Shown: positions 16,891-27,946 of the stretch, in pieces
Numbering within the stretch: position 1 is the stretch's first letter
How the letters are laid out: every line of letters starts with the position of its first letter
Origin: a virus
DNA length: 42,526 nt
Virus record (IMG/VR): IMGVR_UViG_3300010150_000042
Span: 1 to 42,526 of that record
Direction: 5' to 3' (one strand)
Translations under genes and position numbers: made by a program
Notes under the pieces: generated by a model
The model's database searches: none
Told to the model about the DNA's origin: nothing
What the model saw: only the letters and a program-made list of their open reading frames with translations

Positions 16891-17645
16891 GTTTGATGCA
16901 CAAAGAAGGCGATCAACTCTGGCCAAAAGTTAAAACCGTTGACGATGGACGGGTTGTTGGTTATGAATCTAACAGCATCACCGAATATTTGTTATCCGAC
17001 AATCCAAATTTTTCTAGCTACAATGAACACTATGGTCACCGAATATCATATGACTTCAATTTTGCTGGACACAGAACACCAAAAACTTTTGATAAAACAA
17101 ATCACTTCTTAGTTGTAGGTGGTTCTCAGACCTTTGGTATTGGAGTTCCAGAAGATAAGTGCTACCCATCAATGATTGCAAAAAGTTTGGGTATGGACTA
17201 TTACAACATGTCTTTGCCTGGTGTGTCGCATGACATAAACATTTCAAATCTATTATGGTATCTATCCACATACTCTCCCAGATTTATATTGTGGGAGTGG
17301 TTATTCGATTCAAGAAATTATATAATTCTTCCGCATATGGATGATATGGTTCTCCCTCTTATTTCAACCCATGTACAAAAATATGAAGAGGTGTTTGATC
17401 TGCGTGGACTGTCGGAATTTTTTCTGTCTTGCAATGACATTGGATATAATAAATCTCGCAGATTGCTGCATGAGATGGCATTAAAAAATATTTCTAATAT
17501 GCATCAAGTCTATCAATTTGATTTCAACAAGGACTTTGAAGTAAATTCCGTTGACGTTGGCAGAGAAGGATTCCACTACGGAATTGATACTCACCAATCA
17601 ATTGCAGACAGTTTAATCAAAAGAATCCTTCCTTCTGGCCGATAA
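16887..17645 (+). CDS. SGNH/GDSL hydrolase-like protein (252 aa)
   Basis: Predicted SGNH-fold esterase or acyl hydrolase. VVGGSQTFGIGV places a nucleophile serine at Ser80 in a GxSxTxG context (block I). NMSLPGVSHD (Gly112) resembles block II. The C-terminal GREGFHYGIDTHQSIADSL resembles block V, where Glu227 stands in for the usual Asp, with His230 or His236 as catalytic histidine. No signal peptide is visible. Proteins of this fold in glycan clusters often add or remove acetyl groups; that role is inferred. The ATG overlaps the previous stop, and the 3' end overlaps the convergent methyltransferase-like gene by 29 bases. Confidence 0.65.
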   Translation: MSLMHKEGDQLWPKVKTVDDGRVVGYESNSITEYLLSDNPNFSSYNEHYGHRISYDFNFAGHRTPKTFDKTNHFLVVGGSQTFGIGVPEDKCYPSMIAKSLGMDYYNMSLPGVSHDINISNLLWYLSTYSPRFILWEWLFDSRNYIILPHMDDMVLPLISTHVQKYEEVFDLRGLSEFFLSCNDIGYNKSRRLLHEMALKNISNMHQVYQFDFNKDFEVNSVDVGREGFHYGIDTHQSIADSLIKRILPSGR

Positions 17646-18300
17646 TCATAAACCTATCGTATTCTTTTTTTCCGTCCCAAGAGTGATAAGTTTGTTTGAT
17701 GGTGCCCTCAAATTCTGCATCAGGCAATCCGATCTGATCTTTTAACTCTTCAATAGAACCCACACAGTTTATACCATACATCTCTTCAACCACGTTAGAG
17801 TTTTGCATGGCGAATACTGCATTGGGATTCTTTGTAACTAGTTCTTCTAGGGGATACATTTGTTCTGTGTGAATACAGATCACAACATCTACTTCAATCT
17901 TGTTGAGGTTTTCAAACTCAAATGGGATATCCAAATTCCAGTGTCGAATGTTGACAAACTTTTCTTGGGCGTAGTGTTTGTGAAAAATCTTTGACAACTC
18001 AATCGACTCTTCATCCAAGTCAACCATGTGAATCTGTGCTACGTCTAGGTTCTCACAGATCAACGGGACCATAGGCATTCCTAACCAAGAATTTAGGATC
18101 AGTACTCTGAGACTCCCAGGCTTTGCATAGTATTCATCAAGATACTTTTGTAGTTCCTCGACCAACCAAACACTTGATTCCACGTTGTTCTCTGACAAAG
18201 ACTGTCTGAAGTCTGCCAGTTTGTGTGGCATCTTATGTTCTATGATACTTAGGGCCTCGCCCCAGTGTTTGAAATTATTTAAGAAATTAAAATTTAACAT
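17617..18300 (-). CDS. Class I methyltransferase-like protein (227 aa)
   Basis: Possible S-adenosylmethionine-dependent methyltransferase. Strand one is SLRVLILNSWLGMPMV, a degenerate form of the usual 'VLDxGxGxG' SAM loop. Strand two is IHMVDLDEESIELS, with the acidic residues that normally hold the ribose. Then come 'NIRHWNLDIPF' and strand four 'VDVVICIHTEQMYP'. The weak glycine loop means activity is uncertain. I chose the ATG at 18300; the upstream TTG at 18324 would lengthen the overlap with the preceding gene. It is the last gene of the minus-strand operon. Confidence 0.6.
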   Translation of the reverse strand: MLNFNFLNNFKHWGEALSIIEHKMPHKLADFRQSLSENNVESSVWLVEELQKYLDEYYAKPGSLRVLILNSWLGMPMVPLICENLDVAQIHMVDLDEESIELSKIFHKHYAQEKFVNIRHWNLDIPFEFENLNKIEVDVVICIHTEQMYPLEELVTKNPNAVFAMQNSNVVEEMYGINCVGSIEELKDQIGLPDAEFEGTIKQTYHSWDGKKEYDRFMIIGQKEGFF

Positions 18301-18961
18301 CTTCACTTTTTCCCATTGAGTCAAATATACAAATGTATGGTAGTTCTCGGTAGGTATGTTTTTCTATGTCGTGGGGAAAAACAAATCCTTGGTTGAAACT
18401 ATACACCCATCCAAGGGGGAACAGTTTTGTTTTGATTACTCTTCTGTTGTAGAAGAAGTTATCAAGACCACGATAATACCACAGTATTTGTTCTTTATAC
18501 TTGTTGAAGTATTCGGTTAGTTCTCTAGTATTTAGACTGTCATTCCAACGCAACACGGATGAGTTTAAATCCGTAAACTTGTGAGGAATGTGTCTAGTGT
18601 CTTTGTATTGTGTTTCAAGATCGTGCCACCAAGTCTTTACCATACACAAACAATCTTCTGGGTCATACTCAGCTATCACATCAACATTTTTTTGGATGAT
18701 GGTGTCAATGTCAAAAAACATCTTCTCGCCTTTTTGGGTCACGATGCTGTCGTCGAACAGGTACATCTTGTTCCACCACTTTTGTAGTTTGTTGCCGCCC
18801 GGCAGAGTCAAAGGCTTAATCGATGGGTCCAATCCTTTGGGGTCTTCTGTTAGACAGAAAAAATCAAAGTCACATGTTAGATATTTCAAACACTGTTCAT
18901 AGATACTGTTGACATGTTGGTGATTATATTTGTCACCCCACTTTACGGTATAGATGTTCAT
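18287..18961 (-). CDS. Glycosyltransferase paralogue (224 aa)
   Basis: Predicted GT-A glycosyltransferase. It opens with IYTVKWGDKYNHQHVNSIY, the 'KWGxKY...VN' signature shared in this operon. The DxD is in FFDIDTIIQ (Asp84, Asp86). A late 'GWVYSFNQG' strand also recurs in its neighbours. I chose the ATG at 18961 over the TTG at 18967. The start overlaps the stop of the upstream gene by four bases and the stop overlaps the downstream methyltransferase-like gene by 14, so the operon is tightly coupled. Donor and acceptor are unknown. Confidence 0.75.
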   Translation of the reverse strand: MNIYTVKWGDKYNHQHVNSIYEQCLKYLTCDFDFFCLTEDPKGLDPSIKPLTLPGGNKLQKWWNKMYLFDDSIVTQKGEKMFFDIDTIIQKNVDVIAEYDPEDCLCMVKTWWHDLETQYKDTRHIPHKFTDLNSSVLRWNDSLNTRELTEYFNKYKEQILWYYRGLDNFFYNRRVIKTKLFPLGWVYSFNQGFVFPHDIEKHTYRELPYICIFDSMGKSEDVKF

Positions 18962-19770
18962 CGCCAATGCTCCAGTAATTTAGGATCAGCAAGTTCATCT
19001 TGTTTCGTGTGACCTCTACTCTTATCCTCAAAGGGCAACAGATCAACGTTGAACACGCAGATGATGCAGTTTGGTCTGTAGATACCAACGTTCAAATCGT
19101 CTTCATCCCATGACCGACCACGGTTGTATGAGTATGCCATCCAAGAAGGAAAGTGATCCCACAAGTCTTCACCGTATCTACCCCACTTCCATGAATGATA
19201 GTTATCGGTTCCGTCAGTGTATGTGAACCAAATCTTCTTTTGATTTTTTAGCACATCTTCCCAGATACACTCACACTGATCGTCTGACCACACTTGACAC
19301 GATCCGTTTGTATATGCACCATGAGCCAACTTAAATTGTCTAGTCTCCATTGGTCTGGGGTCTTGCCACCAAGACTTCATCTTGGTGGGTCTTTCCATGT
19401 TATATGTTATAACAGGTGTAAGATCGCGTTGAATGATAACATCCAAGTCAAAAAAAACAAAACGTCCAGTAGGCTTATCAGGAGCAAAATTATGGGTATT
19501 AAAAACAAAAGTTTTAGGACGATCCCAACAGCGGGCCATACCATACTTAAAATTTTCACTGCCAAACCAATACTTAGGATGAATATCAGGAATGTCAGGA
19601 AAAGGGATAACATTAACATCATCATCAAATCCTTCAGAGTTATCGGTGTAGCAATAAAAGTGAAACTCAAACTTGTCTGGAGTATTTCTTTTTGCCATCT
19701 CTTTCAATCTGTTGACGAAGTGTGGACCGTATTTGGTTCCCCACTTACAACATACATAATTTACTCTCAC
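18958..19770 (-). CDS. Glycosyltransferase paralogue (270 aa)
   Basis: Predicted GT-A glycosyltransferase. Signature start VNYVCCKWGTKYGPHFVN, DxD in FFDLDVIIQ (Asp108, Asp110), then a 'KSWWQDPRP' segment and 'WMAYSYNRGRSW' near residue 215. It shares 'HP.YWFG.ENF/Y' and 'DGTDNY' with the N-terminal domain of the 835-residue neighbour, so those two are the closest pair and probably arose by tandem duplication. The start is GTG at 19770 in a GTGA overlap with the upstream stop, a sign of translational coupling. Confidence 0.78.
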   Translation of the reverse strand: MRVNYVCCKWGTKYGPHFVNRLKEMAKRNTPDKFEFHFYCYTDNSEGFDDDVNVIPFPDIPDIHPKYWFGSENFKYGMARCWDRPKTFVFNTHNFAPDKPTGRFVFFDLDVIIQRDLTPVITYNMERPTKMKSWWQDPRPMETRQFKLAHGAYTNGSCQVWSDDQCECIWEDVLKNQKKIWFTYTDGTDNYHSWKWGRYGEDLWDHFPSWMAYSYNRGRSWDEDDLNVGIYRPNCIICVFNVDLLPFEDKSRGHTKQDELADPKLLEHWR

Positions 19771-22274
19771 TTACACCCCCCACATCTTTTGGTGCATATG
19801 TTTAACGGTTTTCGTTTTAGGTGTTGACTTATATTTTCAAAGTCGTGATTGAATATTACTTCACCAACAGAGAACTTACTTAGATCATTATACCGTCTAT
19901 TGTAGGTATAGTCAAGGGGATGGTGCGGCAATAGTTTATTTTCTTCTACGTCTCTAGAAATAAAGGCGCAGGGAAACGCATTTCCAGCTGAGTTGACATA
20001 GAAGTAGCCAGACTTTCTTGAGTCACACCACACGGGGTCTCTCTCTTTCATTTTTCTTTTGATCGGTCTTATCTCATCTGACTTCTTGAACATTTTCAAA
20101 GTCTCTAGGTTCACGGGGATGTCACTTGCTATTATCTCTGTTACCCCGTTTTCTGATTCTGCTTTCTGTGGCTGCGGCACATATTGTAAGTTGTCAATGT
20201 AGATTGGTTTGATAAAATTTTTGTTATATGTCTGTACGGTGATGGTAACATTTTTTTCTTTGAAGTACTTACAGATGTCCTCTAGGTGTTGCGACTTTGT
20301 GGGGTCAGAAGTTTCGCACATAAACGTGACCCAGTTGACTTTGAATTTGTCAAATATATTCTTGATCGATGCCGGGCTGTGTTCTTTGCCGTTTACAAAT
20401 AGGTCATTGAATTCATCTCCGGTGTCGTTCTGCGTTGTACTCAATTGAATCAGAGCTCCATCTGGAGCACCGTCATCATACAGTCCGTGATATAGGTCAC
20501 TGAATTGTTCCCCATGCATTTGAAAGTATTTTATCAGAGTGTCGTTGTCCGATACATTGTCTTGATTTAGAATCGACAACAACTCTTGTTTCGGCATGAT
20601 ATTATACAGACGTTCAAATACTTTTTCATAGTCTTGTTTATAGAATAGTTCCTTTAGAGTATTAACATAATATTTTTTATACAATGCCTGTATGTCCGAC
20701 TCCGATGAATCCCAAAATATTCTTTGTAACCCATGTTGTTTGATGTTTTCCATAACATCGTGTTTGATTTTAGGAAGTGTATTATTCTTCCAAAGTCTTT
20801 TGTAAAGAGCAAAACATTGTAGATTGCTGACGTTCCAAAAGTATCTCACTGGCCCACAATCTTTTGCCTCTTTATATACTACTCGTTGCATCTTGTTGAT
20901 ATATCTTTGTTTGTAAAAATCATAGATATCATCTGCATCTTTATTCCAATATAGAGATTGGTCACCTTCTTGGAGTAGTCTGTCTTCTGGGAAGTCTGCA
21001 CAAAATTTCAAGTGCATTGATATCATGTCACCAGATTCAAATAAATCCTTGATGACTCCTTTGTGGTGAGGTTCGATCATCCTGATAAACTTCATGTCTG
21101 AGACTTCACGTTCTAGTTCTGGAACAAGTTTTTTGACTTCTTCCACGGGTTTGGCAAAGTATTCTTTTAGTTCTGGAAAGTCTTTGATTAGTTTCTCAGA
21201 CAAAGATTGTAAATCATTTTGGTCAACCAGACTTTTGATTGACGATACCACATCTTGATTCATGTAGTTTTTTTCTAGTGAGTCATCTGATACGGAATCA
21301 AATCCCAACCACTCACGCAGAGTTTCAAACTTACTCGAATACTTTTCCCAATCATCTTTCAATTGGGGCAGGTCTTTCTCAAACTTTGACTGCAATGTAT
21401 CGTAGTCTTTGTTCTTCAAAAGTTCTGATATTTTATCGGTGTGTTTGTTTTTGGTAAAAAATGTACTAGGAAATTTGGGCAACCAAAGTCTTTCAAACTC
21501 TGTCTTGCCGTGCCAGTGTATCAGAAGGTTATAGTCCTTCACATCATGCGGTTTAAAAAACTTTGTTCTCTTGGGTACAACTGGTGCTTCAAAGATACAA
21601 AACTTTGGTTCTTCCCTGTATAGATGCGGAGTAACATCATCTGGGTATTGTTGGCCGCGATTATAAGAATACGCCCACTCCGAGGGAAGGAAAGACCAGT
21701 ACCCATCCCCTACCACTTGGTGTTCTCTCCAAGGATAGTAATTGTCGGTTCCCTTCCAGAAGGTTTTGAATATCGTGTCCTTGTGTTTTAGGACATCATT
21801 GTAAATTTTTTCCCCTGCATCGTTACACCACAACATTACGCTGGAGTTATGCAGAGTGCCTCTTATGTCTTTGAAACGTCTATCATGCAACACTGAGGGA
21901 TTTTCCCAGTTTGAATACAACATGTGTGGTGTTGCAGAGAGTTCAAATATGTCATCGATGTTGTTTTGAATGACAACATCTAAATCAATATAACAGAACG
22001 GGCCCTTGGTACGCAACCAATGGTGAGAATTTAGTACTAGAAATTTTGATCTGTCCCAACAGTAGTTCTCTTTGCCGAACCAGTAGTCGGGATGCAGTGG
22101 GTCAACTCTGGGTATTGATCGAATGGTTATGCCTTTGTCAATACCATCTGGATCATCGGTGTAACATATAAACTTGTGCCGCTTGGTATAGTTCTGTTGA
22201 ACCATGTTGCGTAAATTGTTTACATATTCTGCCGAGTACTTATTTCCCCATTTCATGCAGAGAAAGTGCATCAT
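19767..22274 (-). CDS. Glycosyltransferase fused to degenerate radical-SAM/SPASM-like domain (835 aa)
   Basis: Three-part protein. Residues 1-270 are a GT-A glycosyltransferase: start FLCMKWGNKYSAEYVNNL, DxD in YIDLDVVIQ (Asp97, Asp99), 'WAYSYNRGQQ' near 215. Residues 290-600 are helical, with two repeat types: one like 'LVDQNDLQSLSEKLIKDFPE' and one like 'FWDSSESDIQALYKKYYVN'. Residues 609-835 look like a radical-SAM protein whose cluster cysteines are lost: IQLSTTQNDTGDEFND replaces the expected CxxxCxxC strand, followed by 'VTFMCETSDPTKSQHLEDI'. The end keeps a SPASM-like set of cysteines (Cys750, 769, 827, 831, 834; GNAFPCAF and ICTKRCGGCK), which could still bind an iron-sulfur cluster or zinc. 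The start is the first of two adjacent ATGs. The fusion has no T4 counterpart. Confidence 0.72.
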   Translation of the reverse strand: MMHFLCMKWGNKYSAEYVNNLRNMVQQNYTKRHKFICYTDDPDGIDKGITIRSIPRVDPLHPDYWFGKENYCWDRSKFLVLNSHHWLRTKGPFCYIDLDVVIQNNIDDIFELSATPHMLYSNWENPSVLHDRRFKDIRGTLHNSSVMLWCNDAGEKIYNDVLKHKDTIFKTFWKGTDNYYPWREHQVVGDGYWSFLPSEWAYSYNRGQQYPDDVTPHLYREEPKFCIFEAPVVPKRTKFFKPHDVKDYNLLIHWHGKTEFERLWLPKFPSTFFTKNKHTDKISELLKNKDYDTLQSKFEKDLPQLKDDWEKYSSKFETLREWLGFDSVSDDSLEKNYMNQDVVSSIKSLVDQNDLQSLSEKLIKDFPELKEYFAKPVEEVKKLVPELEREVSDMKFIRMIEPHHKGVIKDLFESGDMISMHLKFCADFPEDRLLQEGDQSLYWNKDADDIYDFYKQRYINKMQRVVYKEAKDCGPVRYFWNVSNLQCFALYKRLWKNNTLPKIKHDVMENIKQHGLQRIFWDSSESDIQALYKKYYVNTLKELFYKQDYEKVFERLYNIMPKQELLSILNQDNVSDNDTLIKYFQMHGEQFSDLYHGLYDDGAPDGALIQLSTTQNDTGDEFNDLFVNGKEHSPASIKNIFDKFKVNWVTFMCETSDPTKSQHLEDICKYFKEKNVTITVQTYNKNFIKPIYIDNLQYVPQPQKAESENGVTEIIASDIPVNLETLKMFKKSDEIRPIKRKMKERDPVWCDSRKSGYFYVNSAGNAFPCAFISRDVEENKLLPHHPLDYTYNRRYNDLSKFSVGEVIFNHDFENISQHLKRKPLNICTKRCGGCK

Positions 22275-22974
22275 AATATTTTTTTCTCAACTCATCTTTT
22301 GCAGTTAGACCATTCATAATCACGATTGGATATTCTGGTTTTATTTTATATCCTCTTGGGGATACGTCTGTGTCGTAATCTACTCCGGCTTGAAACGAGT
22401 ACATCAATCCCTTGGGAAATGTGTTGTCGAAGAGTTTTTCGTGGTATAAAAATCTATCGTCTCCACAGTATTTAGTCATAAAATATTGATCGTTATCTTC
22501 AAAGTAGTCGTAGATATATCTCGCGTCATTCCCGTTCCATGCCATCACGCTGGAATTCCACAATCCCAACCACTTATATGTCCAAGGTAGATCATCAGAA
22601 CCATCGTCAAAATGATACTTTTTTGGTTTGTTGTAGATTTTATTCTCACTGGTATCCCACGGAGCCTTCCAGTAACAATAACAAATTGTTGGTTTTGAAC
22701 AGTGGTCGAACAATTTGTCTAGACTACCCTGTATTATAACATCTAAGTCTAGGTAAAGGCAATCCCCTTGCCAATTATTTTTGAATATTTTTATCTTCTC
22801 CCAGTGTCCCTCTGGTTCTTCTATTCGGATTTGTTTTATATTTTTGTTAAGGTGTTTGCTGTTCTCGTCATCTACGATGCATATATGATTGTACTGTTTG
22901 GTTTTATCATAAATATAGTGTACGTCATCCGCACTATACTTTTCACCATAAAGAACCGTCACAACTGTTTTCAT
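22240..22974 (-). CDS. Glycosyltransferase paralogue (244 aa)
   Basis: Predicted GT-A glycosyltransferase and first gene of the minus-strand operon. It starts VVTVLYGEKYSADDVHYIY (the YGxKY form of the operon signature), has DxD in YLDLDVIIQ (Asp76, Asp78), a 'WNSSVMAWNG' strand near 140-150 that matches the 'NSSVMLW' of the 835-residue protein, and 'GLMYSFQAG' near 195. A purine-rich AGAAAGAGA lies a few bases before the ATG. The 3' end overlaps the next gene by 35 bases. I could not define a minus-strand promoter in the short gap upstream. Confidence 0.76.
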   Translation of the reverse strand: MKTVVTVLYGEKYSADDVHYIYDKTKQYNHICIVDDENSKHLNKNIKQIRIEEPEGHWEKIKIFKNNWQGDCLYLDLDVIIQGSLDKLFDHCSKPTICYCYWKAPWDTSENKIYNKPKKYHFDDGSDDLPWTYKWLGLWNSSVMAWNGNDARYIYDYFEDNDQYFMTKYCGDDRFLYHEKLFDNTFPKGLMYSFQAGVDYDTDVSPRGYKIKPEYPIVIMNGLTAKDELRKKYYDALSLHEMGK

Positions 22975-25421: not shown

Positions 25422-26375
25422 ATGACGAATATCATCAAGCCAAAAAGAAGTGAATCAAGTGGAGCTCCTACTGCCAGTGATTTAGCTGTTGGGGAACTTG
25501 CCATAAACCTAGCGGATGGTACTATCCATTCTAAAAAGGTTGATGGTACGGTTGTCTCTCTTGGTTCATCTTCTTCCTCAGCTGGGAGTATTACATTTGC
25601 TTCTGCAAACGATACTCAGGATTTTGGTGATTTAACTACTTTTAGTCATACTGGCGATCTGGGGTCCATTGCAGAAACAGAAAACAATGGACTCACCCCA
25701 ACAGATTTGGGTCTGTTGCATTACGACGAAATCTTTAGAAGTCTCACAGTCAATATTTCCCTTACTGCAATGGGATTGACGTATCCCACTTCAGACGGTT
25801 CTGCTGGCCAGTTTTTAAAGACGGATGGCAGTGGTACGCTTTCTTTTGCCACTGTCTCAACAGATTTGGTGAGTGATACTACTCCGCAACTTGGGGGCGA
25901 TCTAGATTTAAACTCAAACGATATTACTGGAACGGGTAATATTGACATTACGGGAAACACTGGTCTCACTGGCACTACAACACAGGGCGCGACTGACTTC
26001 TACACCAAACAATATGTTCTGTACGGCACAACAACAGATGCCACTGAGACAGAAGTATTGATAGGAGGTTCAACTAGAATTTCTGTACCCTCAAACACAA
26101 CAATGTTTTATGAAGTAAATATTGTTTCTAGAAGGACAGACGCAACAGGAGAGTCTGGTGCGTGGCACTTGAAGGGTTGTGCAGACAACTTCTCTGGTAC
26201 TGTCGCTGACGTAGGTGATGTTTACGAAATTGCTGTCGCTCAGGATGATGTAAACATGTCCGTCGATGTTAGGGCAGATGACACAAACGATGCAATCAAT
26301 GTGTTTGTAACTGGTGTCGCTAGTAAGACGATTCGATGGACTGCAATTGTCAAGACGATAGAGGTTGCACAATAA
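25422..26375 (+). CDS. Tail fibre-like protein (317 aa)
   Basis: Probable tail fibre or receptor-binding protein. The N-terminus (IIKPKRSESSGAPTASDLAV, then 'GELAINLADGTIHSK') is the standard phage-fibre attachment start. Residues 145-185 contain 'TTPQLGGDLDLNSNDITGTG', a shaft element seen in many marine phage fibres. The C-terminal 110 residues (from about 'YGTTTDATETEVLIGG') look like a compact beta-sandwich head, a candidate receptor-binding domain. Its stop overlaps the next start by one base. Confidence 0.75.
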   Translation: MTNIIKPKRSESSGAPTASDLAVGELAINLADGTIHSKKVDGTVVSLGSSSSSAGSITFASANDTQDFGDLTTFSHTGDLGSIAETENNGLTPTDLGLLHYDEIFRSLTVNISLTAMGLTYPTSDGSAGQFLKTDGSGTLSFATVSTDLVSDTTPQLGGDLDLNSNDITGTGNIDITGNTGLTGTTTQGATDFYTKQYVLYGTTTDATETEVLIGGSTRISVPSNTTMFYEVNIVSRRTDATGESGAWHLKGCADNFSGTVADVGDVYEIAVAQDDVNMSVDVRADDTNDAINVFVTGVASKTIRWTAIVKTIEVAQ

Positions 26376-27946
26376 TGGCTCGTAGAAACAGAAAGTTTTT
26401 CTTTGATAACGTCAGAGGAAAACTCTTAAAAAATACAAACAAAGGTGTCAAAGATTCTGCCGATGAAGGACTCAAAGTAAGTGGATTTGCCAACACCGCA
26501 GTTATTCATAGTACAGATTCTTTTTCAGACGTAAACACGAAGTTTATGACTGCGGCGGCGATTGATGATAGAATCGGCACACGGACAAGCGATCTAGTAG
26601 ACTCTGCGCCTTCAACTTTAAACACGCTCAATGAACTTGCCGCGGCGCTCGGGGACGATGCTAGTTTTTCTACGACAACTGCAACATCTCTTGGTAATCG
26701 ATTACGCATTGATGTAGACGATCAGTCCTTAACCTCAGCGCAAAAGACAAATGCAGTGACCAATCTGGGTCTTGCTACTGTTGCATCAAGTGGTGCATAC
26801 AGTGACCTCACTGGTACACCTACTATCCCAACGAACAACAACGAATTGACTAACGGTGCATCATACATCACAGGGTACACTGTAACCGAATCTGATGTCA
26901 CTGGTCATCAAGCCGCGCTCTCAATTACTGAGTCACAGATCAGTGACTTGGGATCGTATTCTACATTCAGTGGCGCGTATGCCGACCTAACAGGTAAACC
27001 TACATTATTCTCTGGTGCTTATGCTGATCTAACTGGCAAACCTACTATCCCAACGAACAATAATCAATTGACGAATGGTGCTGGATACATTACTTCTGCT
27101 GATGGAGGTAATGCTGACAACTTAGACGGATATACATGGGACACTTCTGGTAAAAATGTAAGGGCATCCGAATCTTATTCTGACGGCTGGTTCCGCAATT
27201 ATAATAGTGGAAAAGGTCTATACAATCAGGCAACTACTCAGCATTTTTATTCTGATAACGACGATGGATGGACGATTGCTGGTGGTACGGGCGCTAACTG
27301 GTTAAAACTGTGTGCTGAATACGAGGGTTCAGTGCAGGGTTGGTTTTATGCTGATAATGATTACCAAGGATTTTTAAATCACGCAGGACAGTGGCAATTA
27401 AGAATACGAGCAGACGATGGATATTCACCTAGTTTATATTTTCTTGAGGAAAGCAATGAGAGTTGGAGTGGGAATCCTGGATCAAATCAAGGAAAAATTG
27501 AGTATCATTCAAATCGTTTTTATATTGCATCTGGGTCTAATTCCACTGAAGTTTTGAGATTAAGACGGAGCGGTGATGATGTTGCCGCGTTCGCCAATGA
27601 CGGCAGCCTAAGATGTCAAGGAAATATTACAGCCTACTCTGACCCATCAGATATTAAACTAAAAGAAAATATAACTAATATCCCCAACTCTCTTGATAAA
27701 GTAAAGTCTCTAAACGGAGTGCAATTTACATACAAGAAGGATGGGGGTAAGTCTAGTGGTGTTATTGCACAAGAAGTTGAAGCGGTGCTGCCGGAGCTTG
27801 TTTATGAGAGTAAAGACCTAGATACCGACGAAGCATTTAAAGTCGTGAGGTATGGAAACATGGTAGGACTATTAATTGAAGCAATCAAAGAGCAACAAGA
27901 ACAAATTGAAGAATTGAAGGAGATGATCGGTGGCTCTTCAGAGTAG
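26375..27946 (+). CDS. Tail fibre with S74 intramolecular chaperone (523 aa)
   Basis: Tail fibre or spike that matures by self-cleavage. The start at 26375 (MARRNRKFF) overlaps the previous stop; an upstream in-frame ATG would lie inside the previous gene. The shaft has repeated 'FSGAYADLTGKPT' units. The middle contains an aromatic, Asp/Gly-rich region (DDGWTIAGGTGANWLKL), likely the receptor-binding part. The last 99 residues are a peptidase S74 chaperone: SDIKLKENI carries the Ser425/Lys dyad, followed by 'LNGVQFTYKK', 'GVIAQEVEAVLPELV' and a C-terminal coiled coil. By analogy with the family, the chaperone cuts itself off just before Ser425 after trimerisation. Confidence 0.9.
   Translation: MARRNRKFFFDNVRGKLLKNTNKGVKDSADEGLKVSGFANTAVIHSTDSFSDVNTKFMTAAAIDDRIGTRTSDLVDSAPSTLNTLNELAAALGDDASFSTTTATSLGNRLRIDVDDQSLTSAQKTNAVTNLGLATVASSGAYSDLTGTPTIPTNNNELTNGASYITGYTVTESDVTGHQAALSITESQISDLGSYSTFSGAYADLTGKPTLFSGAYADLTGKPTIPTNNNQLTNGAGYITSADGGNADNLDGYTWDTSGKNVRASESYSDGWFRNYNSGKGLYNQATTQHFYSDNDDGWTIAGGTGANWLKLCAEYEGSVQGWFYADNDYQGFLNHAGQWQLRIRADDGYSPSLYFLEESNESWSGNPGSNQGKIEYHSNRFYIASGSNSTEVLRLRRSGDDVAAFANDGSLRCQGNITAYSDPSDIKLKENITNIPNSLDKVKSLNGVQFTYKKDGGKSSGVIAQEVEAVLPELVYESKDLDTDEAFKVVRYGNMVGLLIEAIKEQQEQIEELKEMIGGSSE

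Follow-up and report, generated by a model that had tools for sequence, protein, structure and literature searches.

In many radical-SAM/SPASM-Twitch enzymes, a peptide or protein is held at the open barrel face. The SPASM domain itself is described by a seven-cysteine motif, CX9-15GX4C..CX2CX5CX3C..C (PMC6231123). Among phages, the slot termed the host recognition cluster in pelagimyophages contains GT8 genes and radical-SAM cassettes (PMC7029224), and 12 radical-SAM genes have been reported in one T4-like marine genome (PMC5332604). GT8 enzymes, phage radical-SAM arrays, and degenerate radical-SAM/SPASM proteins are each already known separately, and it is their combination that is new. No description of a glycosyltransferase (GT) fused to a degenerate radical-SAM domain was found in literature searches (open PMC library), in agreement with the initial annotation of this DNA, which noted no described system of this form.

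The fusion is encoded within the window, that is, the whole stretch analyzed, which is the 42,526-nt (42.5-kb) IMG/VR virus record IMGVR_UViG_3300010150_000042; the source lineage is that of uncultured large T4-like marine phages. The minus-strand frame is open over exactly the span of the gene and the plus-strand frame there is full of stops, so that the single open frame of the initial annotation, for which no strand had been stated, is borne out on the minus strand. The sequence features listed in that annotation were all found at their residues when checked on the translation: DLD at 97-99, IQLSTT at 609, NDTGDEFND at 616, VTFMCETSDP at 649, VTITVQT at 676, and the C-terminal cysteines 750, 769, 827, 831, and 834. 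The parts of the gene and its operon neighbors are collected in Table 1. The window holds no tRNA or Rfam feature.

Table 1. Features of the fusion gene and of the operon around it (positions in the window)
Feature	Position	Strand	Description
Fusion gene	19767-22274	minus	835 aa; GT8-like glycosyltransferase, helical repeats, pseudo-radical-SAM half-barrel, and Twitch-like cysteine domain
GT8-like domain	21450..22274	minus	residues 1-275; DxD 97-99; HWHGK 253-257
Helical repeat region	20475..21449	minus	residues about 276-600
Pseudo-radical-SAM half-barrel	20175..20465	minus	residues about 604-700; 615/619/622 = Q/G/F; N616 invariant
Twitch/SPASM-like domain	19770..20036	minus	residues 747-835; C750-x13-G764-x4-C769 ... 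C827-x3-C831-x2-C834
Upstream GT	22240..22974	minus	phrog_1962; weak Glyco_transf_8; 35 nt shared between its end and the start of the fusion
Downstream GT paralogue	18958..19770	minus	37% identical to the fusion GT half; 4-nt overlap with the fusion
Third separate GT	18287..18967	minus	phrog_1962 E=9.7e-11
Methyltransferase-like last operon gene	17617..18324	minus	weak Spermine_synth / Methyltransf_12

The assignment of the N-terminal domain as GT8-like is well supported at the sequence level, because D97 and D99 are the sole residues invariant in an alignment of 14 diverse phage GTs and because 22 of the 23 structures that the GT profile hits in the PDB are glycosyltransferases of the GT8 type, LgtC, glycogenin, and Gat1 among them (best E 0.0024). 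The intact GT motifs noted earlier are thereby upheld. Profile search linked the fusion GT to phrog_1962 (E=1e-4) and gave no PF01501 match for the fusion itself; two members of the GT alignment did match PF01501 (best 2.7e-7). In a full-length AlphaFold model the GT part is poor (pLDDT about 30 to 40), so the arrangement of the domains is left unplaced by the model. The helical region is predicted with AF2 pLDDT of 80 to 93 over residues 281-530, and its repeats vary in copy number: a 911-aa homologue carries a 73-aa duplication (46/73 identical in direct alignment, which revealed internal repeats where BLAST self-comparison gave nothing), homologues of 735 to 739 aa are without part of the region, and those of 438 to 478 aa are without the whole of it. 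The region is most simply read as a spacer of variable length. The short fusion genes (L269, L271, L299, L303, and L304) show no in-frame ATG upstream of the conserved ITILTFLTIKWG start; their start codon may be CTG or TTG (or ATT), within the overlap with the upstream gene.

The C-terminal half was proposed to follow a radical-SAM plan, and such an ancestry is supported here by fold matches together with profile-profile alignment. In a first AlphaFold model, residues about 604-694 are predicted with high confidence (block means 82 to 96), and the Twitch part with low to moderate confidence. When the stretch 600-811 was searched against the PDB, the top 26 rows were all radical-SAM proteins, with SuiB (Z 11.3), BtrN (10.7), CteB (10.6), and PqqE (10.3) as the best matches and the first unrelated row at Z 5.1. 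The second, full-length model placed 38 radical-SAM rows first (SuiB, Z 12.8), with the next unrelated match at 5.0, and phage radical-SAM/SPASM proteins were the best matches in a viral structure library. The fold is thus radical-SAM-like in both models, and an unrelated one emerged from neither.

Profile-profile comparison of 60 distinct homologous domains with 15 proteins of a phage radical-SAM set, in which the cysteine triad is missing from one Mosig ORF and present in all the others, gave a probability of 93.5% (P = 2.3e-7). The score of 55.7 compares with a maximum of 16.5 in 60 column shuffles, 15.3 for the reversed profile, and 15.1 when an unrelated GT profile was used. Taken alone, the half-barrel scores 41.3 (shuffle maximum 14.2) and the Twitch part 28.8 (shuffle maximum 17.1). 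With seven intact sequences, an earlier comparison had given a weak signal (P 0.023), and the relationship became strong after both sides were diversified. Short homologues read VVLELTNKSNDTDNKFNDIF, corresponding to the canonical LTNxCN strand (LTNxCNxxCxxC) with its Cys replaced by Ser, Phe, His, or Tyr. Direct profile searches gave no NCBIfam or PDB sequence match for the fusion. The search against radical-SAM and SPASM families that the initial annotation suggested had a divided outcome, in that PF04055 matched neither the fusion, nor its homologues, nor anything else in the record, and PF13186 was hit below threshold in 9/9 homologues (best E 7.7e-5), scoring 13.4 to 16 bits on the window protein against a cut-off of 21.5.

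Alignment to the canonical LTN-x-C-N-x-x-C-x-x-C places the triad positions of the fusion at 615, 619, and 622. The triad was said to be lost at about 616-623; the loss holds and the site shifts by one residue. None of the 60 distinct homologous domains has Cys at any of the three positions, which are occupied by Q/R/H/S/T/Y/F/I, by G/D/N/K/E/S, and by F/Y, respectively. By contrast with the triad, each of the five C-terminal cysteines is present in 60/60 domains, other cysteines being variable, and the lack of conservation named as a possible counterargument was not encountered. With counts of 0/60 and 60/60 in distinct homologous domains, neither the loss nor the retention is attributable to chance. 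The barrel is also truncated: from the first triad position to the first Twitch Cys there are 114 to 136 residues, against 239 in intact phage relatives. As about 105 residues are gone, and with them the final strands of the (beta/alpha)6 core, and as four strands are predicted, the domain is a half-barrel and not a TIM barrel, and the "old barrel" of the initial annotation was overstated. Loss of the CxxxCxxC loop and of the last third or so of the barrel means that a SAM-cleaving [4Fe-4S] cluster cannot form. Since the defining CxxxCxxC motif was tested for and is absent, we do not call the protein a radical-SAM enzyme.

In place of that loop there is a conserved N-D-T..F-N-D-x-F motif. The Asn that follows the first triad position (N616) is invariant in 60 domains, and D617, D624, and F626 are invariant in the long forms. 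Such conservation could be taken to mean that the loop has acquired a catalytic role of its own, for example as a metal or sugar-nucleotide site, and that the protein is bifunctional. This seems very improbable to us, as the half-barrel is without its last strands and no family or solved structure was matched in the searches made.

The retained cysteines define a Twitch-like rather than a SPASM domain. The fusion has five, arranged C-x13-G-x4-C .. C-x3-C-x2-C, in place of the SPASM seven. C-x13-G-x4-C agrees with the opening of the SPASM motif (PMC6231123), and Twitch-like is preferred because the remainder is shorter. A CX9-15GX4C pair and a later Cys group beside a radical-SAM core, which mark a Twitch domain, are both present, the adjoining core being degenerate; Gly764 is not invariant among homologues. 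With this arrangement the set could still hold one auxiliary iron-sulfur cluster. The invariance of the five cysteines in 60/60 domains, amid cysteines that vary, might then reflect a redox- or iron-sensing cluster that regulates the GT and has no part in acceptor recognition. We regard that as improbable, because it leaves the conservation of the half-barrel (N616, P658, and the NDT..FND motif) unexplained.

Among close pairs, dN/dS is about 0.025 to 0.13 in the half-barrel, 0.009 to 0.12 in the Twitch part, and 0.02 to 0.07 in the GT domain, pairs with saturated dS being uninformative. From these ratios the domain is judged to be under strong purifying selection with its function retained; values this low, near those of the GT, indicate that the C-terminal domain does something. 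The domain occurs in 119 viral stretches of IMG/VR and was never lost in the long loci examined; the viral contigs that carry homologues reach 165 kb. That the catalytic triad and about 105 residues have gone might suggest a decaying relic without function, carried along by the GT. This hypothesis was rejected as scarcely credible, given the low dN/dS in both the half-barrel and the Twitch part and the persistence of the domain across those stretches.

As to origin, the domain was met in viral contigs alone in the searches made. Across 84,980 scanned species of bacteria and archaea no relative was confirmed, so the scan did not trace a cellular origin. When the C-terminal part was searched against phage records by tblastn, matches were weak or absent, with no clear one in phage isolates, and the searches made turned up no GT-fused relative in which the triad is intact. 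Each of the five largest relatives searched has 7 to 9 radical-SAM genes, many of them in a tandem array elsewhere in the genome, and three array genes tested are N_Twi_rSAM. It is likely, judging from these sequences, that the C-terminal domain was derived from a resident radical-SAM gene of such arrays.

The tandem arrays of intact genes, several of them N_Twi_rSAM, were seen in L194, L196, L197-L198, L200, and L201, relatives of the window phage, with carbamoyltransferase-like, dehydrogenase-like, and Asn/Thr-repeat secreted-protein genes (named by eye) as neighbors. Separately, an intact phage radical-SAM/SPASM-like protein (L199:5934-7679 and homologues L202-L218) carries an apparent C-terminal fusion that by eye is short-chain-dehydrogenase-like (RYYITGNNRGLGLDLSEYF, ...YAIAKDALATASR).

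When these results are placed into genomic context, a role in glycosylation comes into view. Five minus-strand genes, with the fusion as the second, overlap end to start, and the 35-nt and 4-nt overlaps at the start and stop of the fusion suggest translational coupling. The order of the genes is the same in 24/24 loci examined, apart from an occasional insertion of one or two further genes, and the last three genes are 68 to 93% identical between contigs, compared with 82 to 90% for the terminase, while the fiber genes barely align. On the grounds of constant order and terminase-like conservation of the last three genes, the operon is a core module of the lineage and not a variable cassette. 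The GT downstream of the fusion is 81 to 93% identical between distant contigs and thereby as conserved as the large terminase; phage GTs located in host-recognition regions are not usually so constant.

The operon runs opposite to the structural genes. It is flanked on one side by a 2477-aa protein (phrog_358/877), which we read by its position as VrlC-like, and on the other by genes for a tail-fiber assembly protein, fibers, a neck protein, a sheath stabilizer, the terminase, and the sheath. This slot, from the VrlC-like gene to the tail-fiber and neck genes, is the pelagimyophage host recognition cluster (PMC7029224). Nearby, at 26336-27943 of the window, lies a tail-fiber protein with a terminal Peptidase_S74 intramolecular chaperone domain, in a region that is hypervariable between relatives. 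In Tetraselmis viridis virus S20 (L344), a related GT, a methyltransferase, and a sialyltransferase directly adjoin head-tail genes, a further instance of glycan genes set within a structural region.

The explanation that we favor, tentatively and with somewhat less than an even chance of being right as a whole, is that the C terminus descends from a phage radical-SAM/Twitch enzyme and that this dead module binds an acceptor, likely a virion protein, on behalf of the GT to which it is joined. In a substrate-recognition module made up of the half-barrel and Twitch part, the open barrel face would present the acceptor to the GT, with the helical repeats as an adjustable spacer. Along with the remaining three GTs and the methyltransferase-like protein of the operon, the fusion would build a short, possibly methylated glycan. 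The scaffold role suggested in the initial annotation, binding of an acceptor peptide or sugar, is a reasonable but tentative inference. That the acceptor would most likely be a virion protein encoded by the surrounding tail and baseplate genes is suggested by the structural-gene setting and the unusual conservation of the operon. GT8 also includes protein glycosyltransferases, and glycogenin and Gat1 are among the PDB matches of the GT profile. The more specific proposal, a protein-glycosylation system whose acceptor is recognized by a module that still holds an auxiliary Fe-S cluster, is doubtful.

Four GTs and a methyltransferase-like gene also look like a set for building a glycan on the host, and the operon may instead alter the polysaccharide of the host surface (LPS O-chain) in the course of infection, for instance to prevent coinfection, with the pseudo-radical-SAM part serving structurally or in complex docking. 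GT8 enzymes are common in LPS synthesis, and LPS is the target favored by the authors for same-slot GTs of related phages (PMC7029224), which counts against a virion acceptor. Tailoring of the host surface would, however, be expected to vary with the host, whereas three operon genes are conserved much as the terminase is, amid hypervariable tail-fiber genes. Radical-SAM/Twitch proteins, moreover, act mostly on peptides, nucleotides, or sugars rather than on lipid-anchored polymers. Modification of LPS is the main rival to a virion target and is considered rather unlikely.

If the favored reading of a dead module that binds the acceptor is true, the fusion would clearly exemplify how a radical-SAM enzyme can become a noncatalytic module welded to another enzyme, and the evidence does suggest an old catalyst converted into a binding module. 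It also points to a glycosylation operon that is conserved in a phage lineage often sampled though uncultured, and it offers a test of Twitch domain function in the absence of radical chemistry. A pseudo-enzyme that may retain the binding half could, in addition, help to find the substrates of the radical-SAM arrays in the same genomes.

Compared with known systems, the fusion resembles the radical-SAM/SPASM-Twitch enzymes SuiB, BtrN, PqqE, CteB, SkfB, and MoaA in the predicted fold of residues about 600-811, the order of strands, the LTNxxN strand, and the C-terminal Cx13Gx4C with its later Cys group. It differs from them in having no CxxxCxxC and no PF04055 match, in missing the last strands, in having five Cys and not seven, and in being fused to a GT. 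The phage L202/L199 family (intact CNAACPQC), from the same phage group, is collinear with the fusion over the half-barrel and the Twitch cysteines, but its triad is intact, its barrel is full-length, and no GT is attached. The N_Twi_rSAM (NF033640) arrays, found in relatives of this phage and thus in the same genomes, likewise combine radical-SAM and Twitch parts; there, the Twitch part is N-terminal, the triad is intact, and the genes stand alone elsewhere in the genome, whereas the Twitch part of the fusion is C-terminal and an NCBIfam search gave it no NF033640 match. TIGR04347 of haloarchaea is likened by its NCBIfam name alone, as a pseudo-SAM/SPASM relative of radical-SAM/SPASM proteins treated as non-SAM, and gave no match to the fusion in the NCBIfam search. 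In Campylobacter phage CP220, radical-SAM genes adjoin nucleotide-sugar transferase genes, but unlike the fusion these are separate genes with intact triads; a radical-SAM run, an amidinotransferase-like gene, and the nucleotide-sugar transferase genes lie side by side there (L220). Finally, the GT8s of marine T4-like phages (PMC7029224) share with the fusion both a GT8-like domain and the slot between VrlC and the neck genes, from which the fusion is set apart by its extra domain and by its place in an operon that is fixed, highly conserved, and encoded on the other strand.
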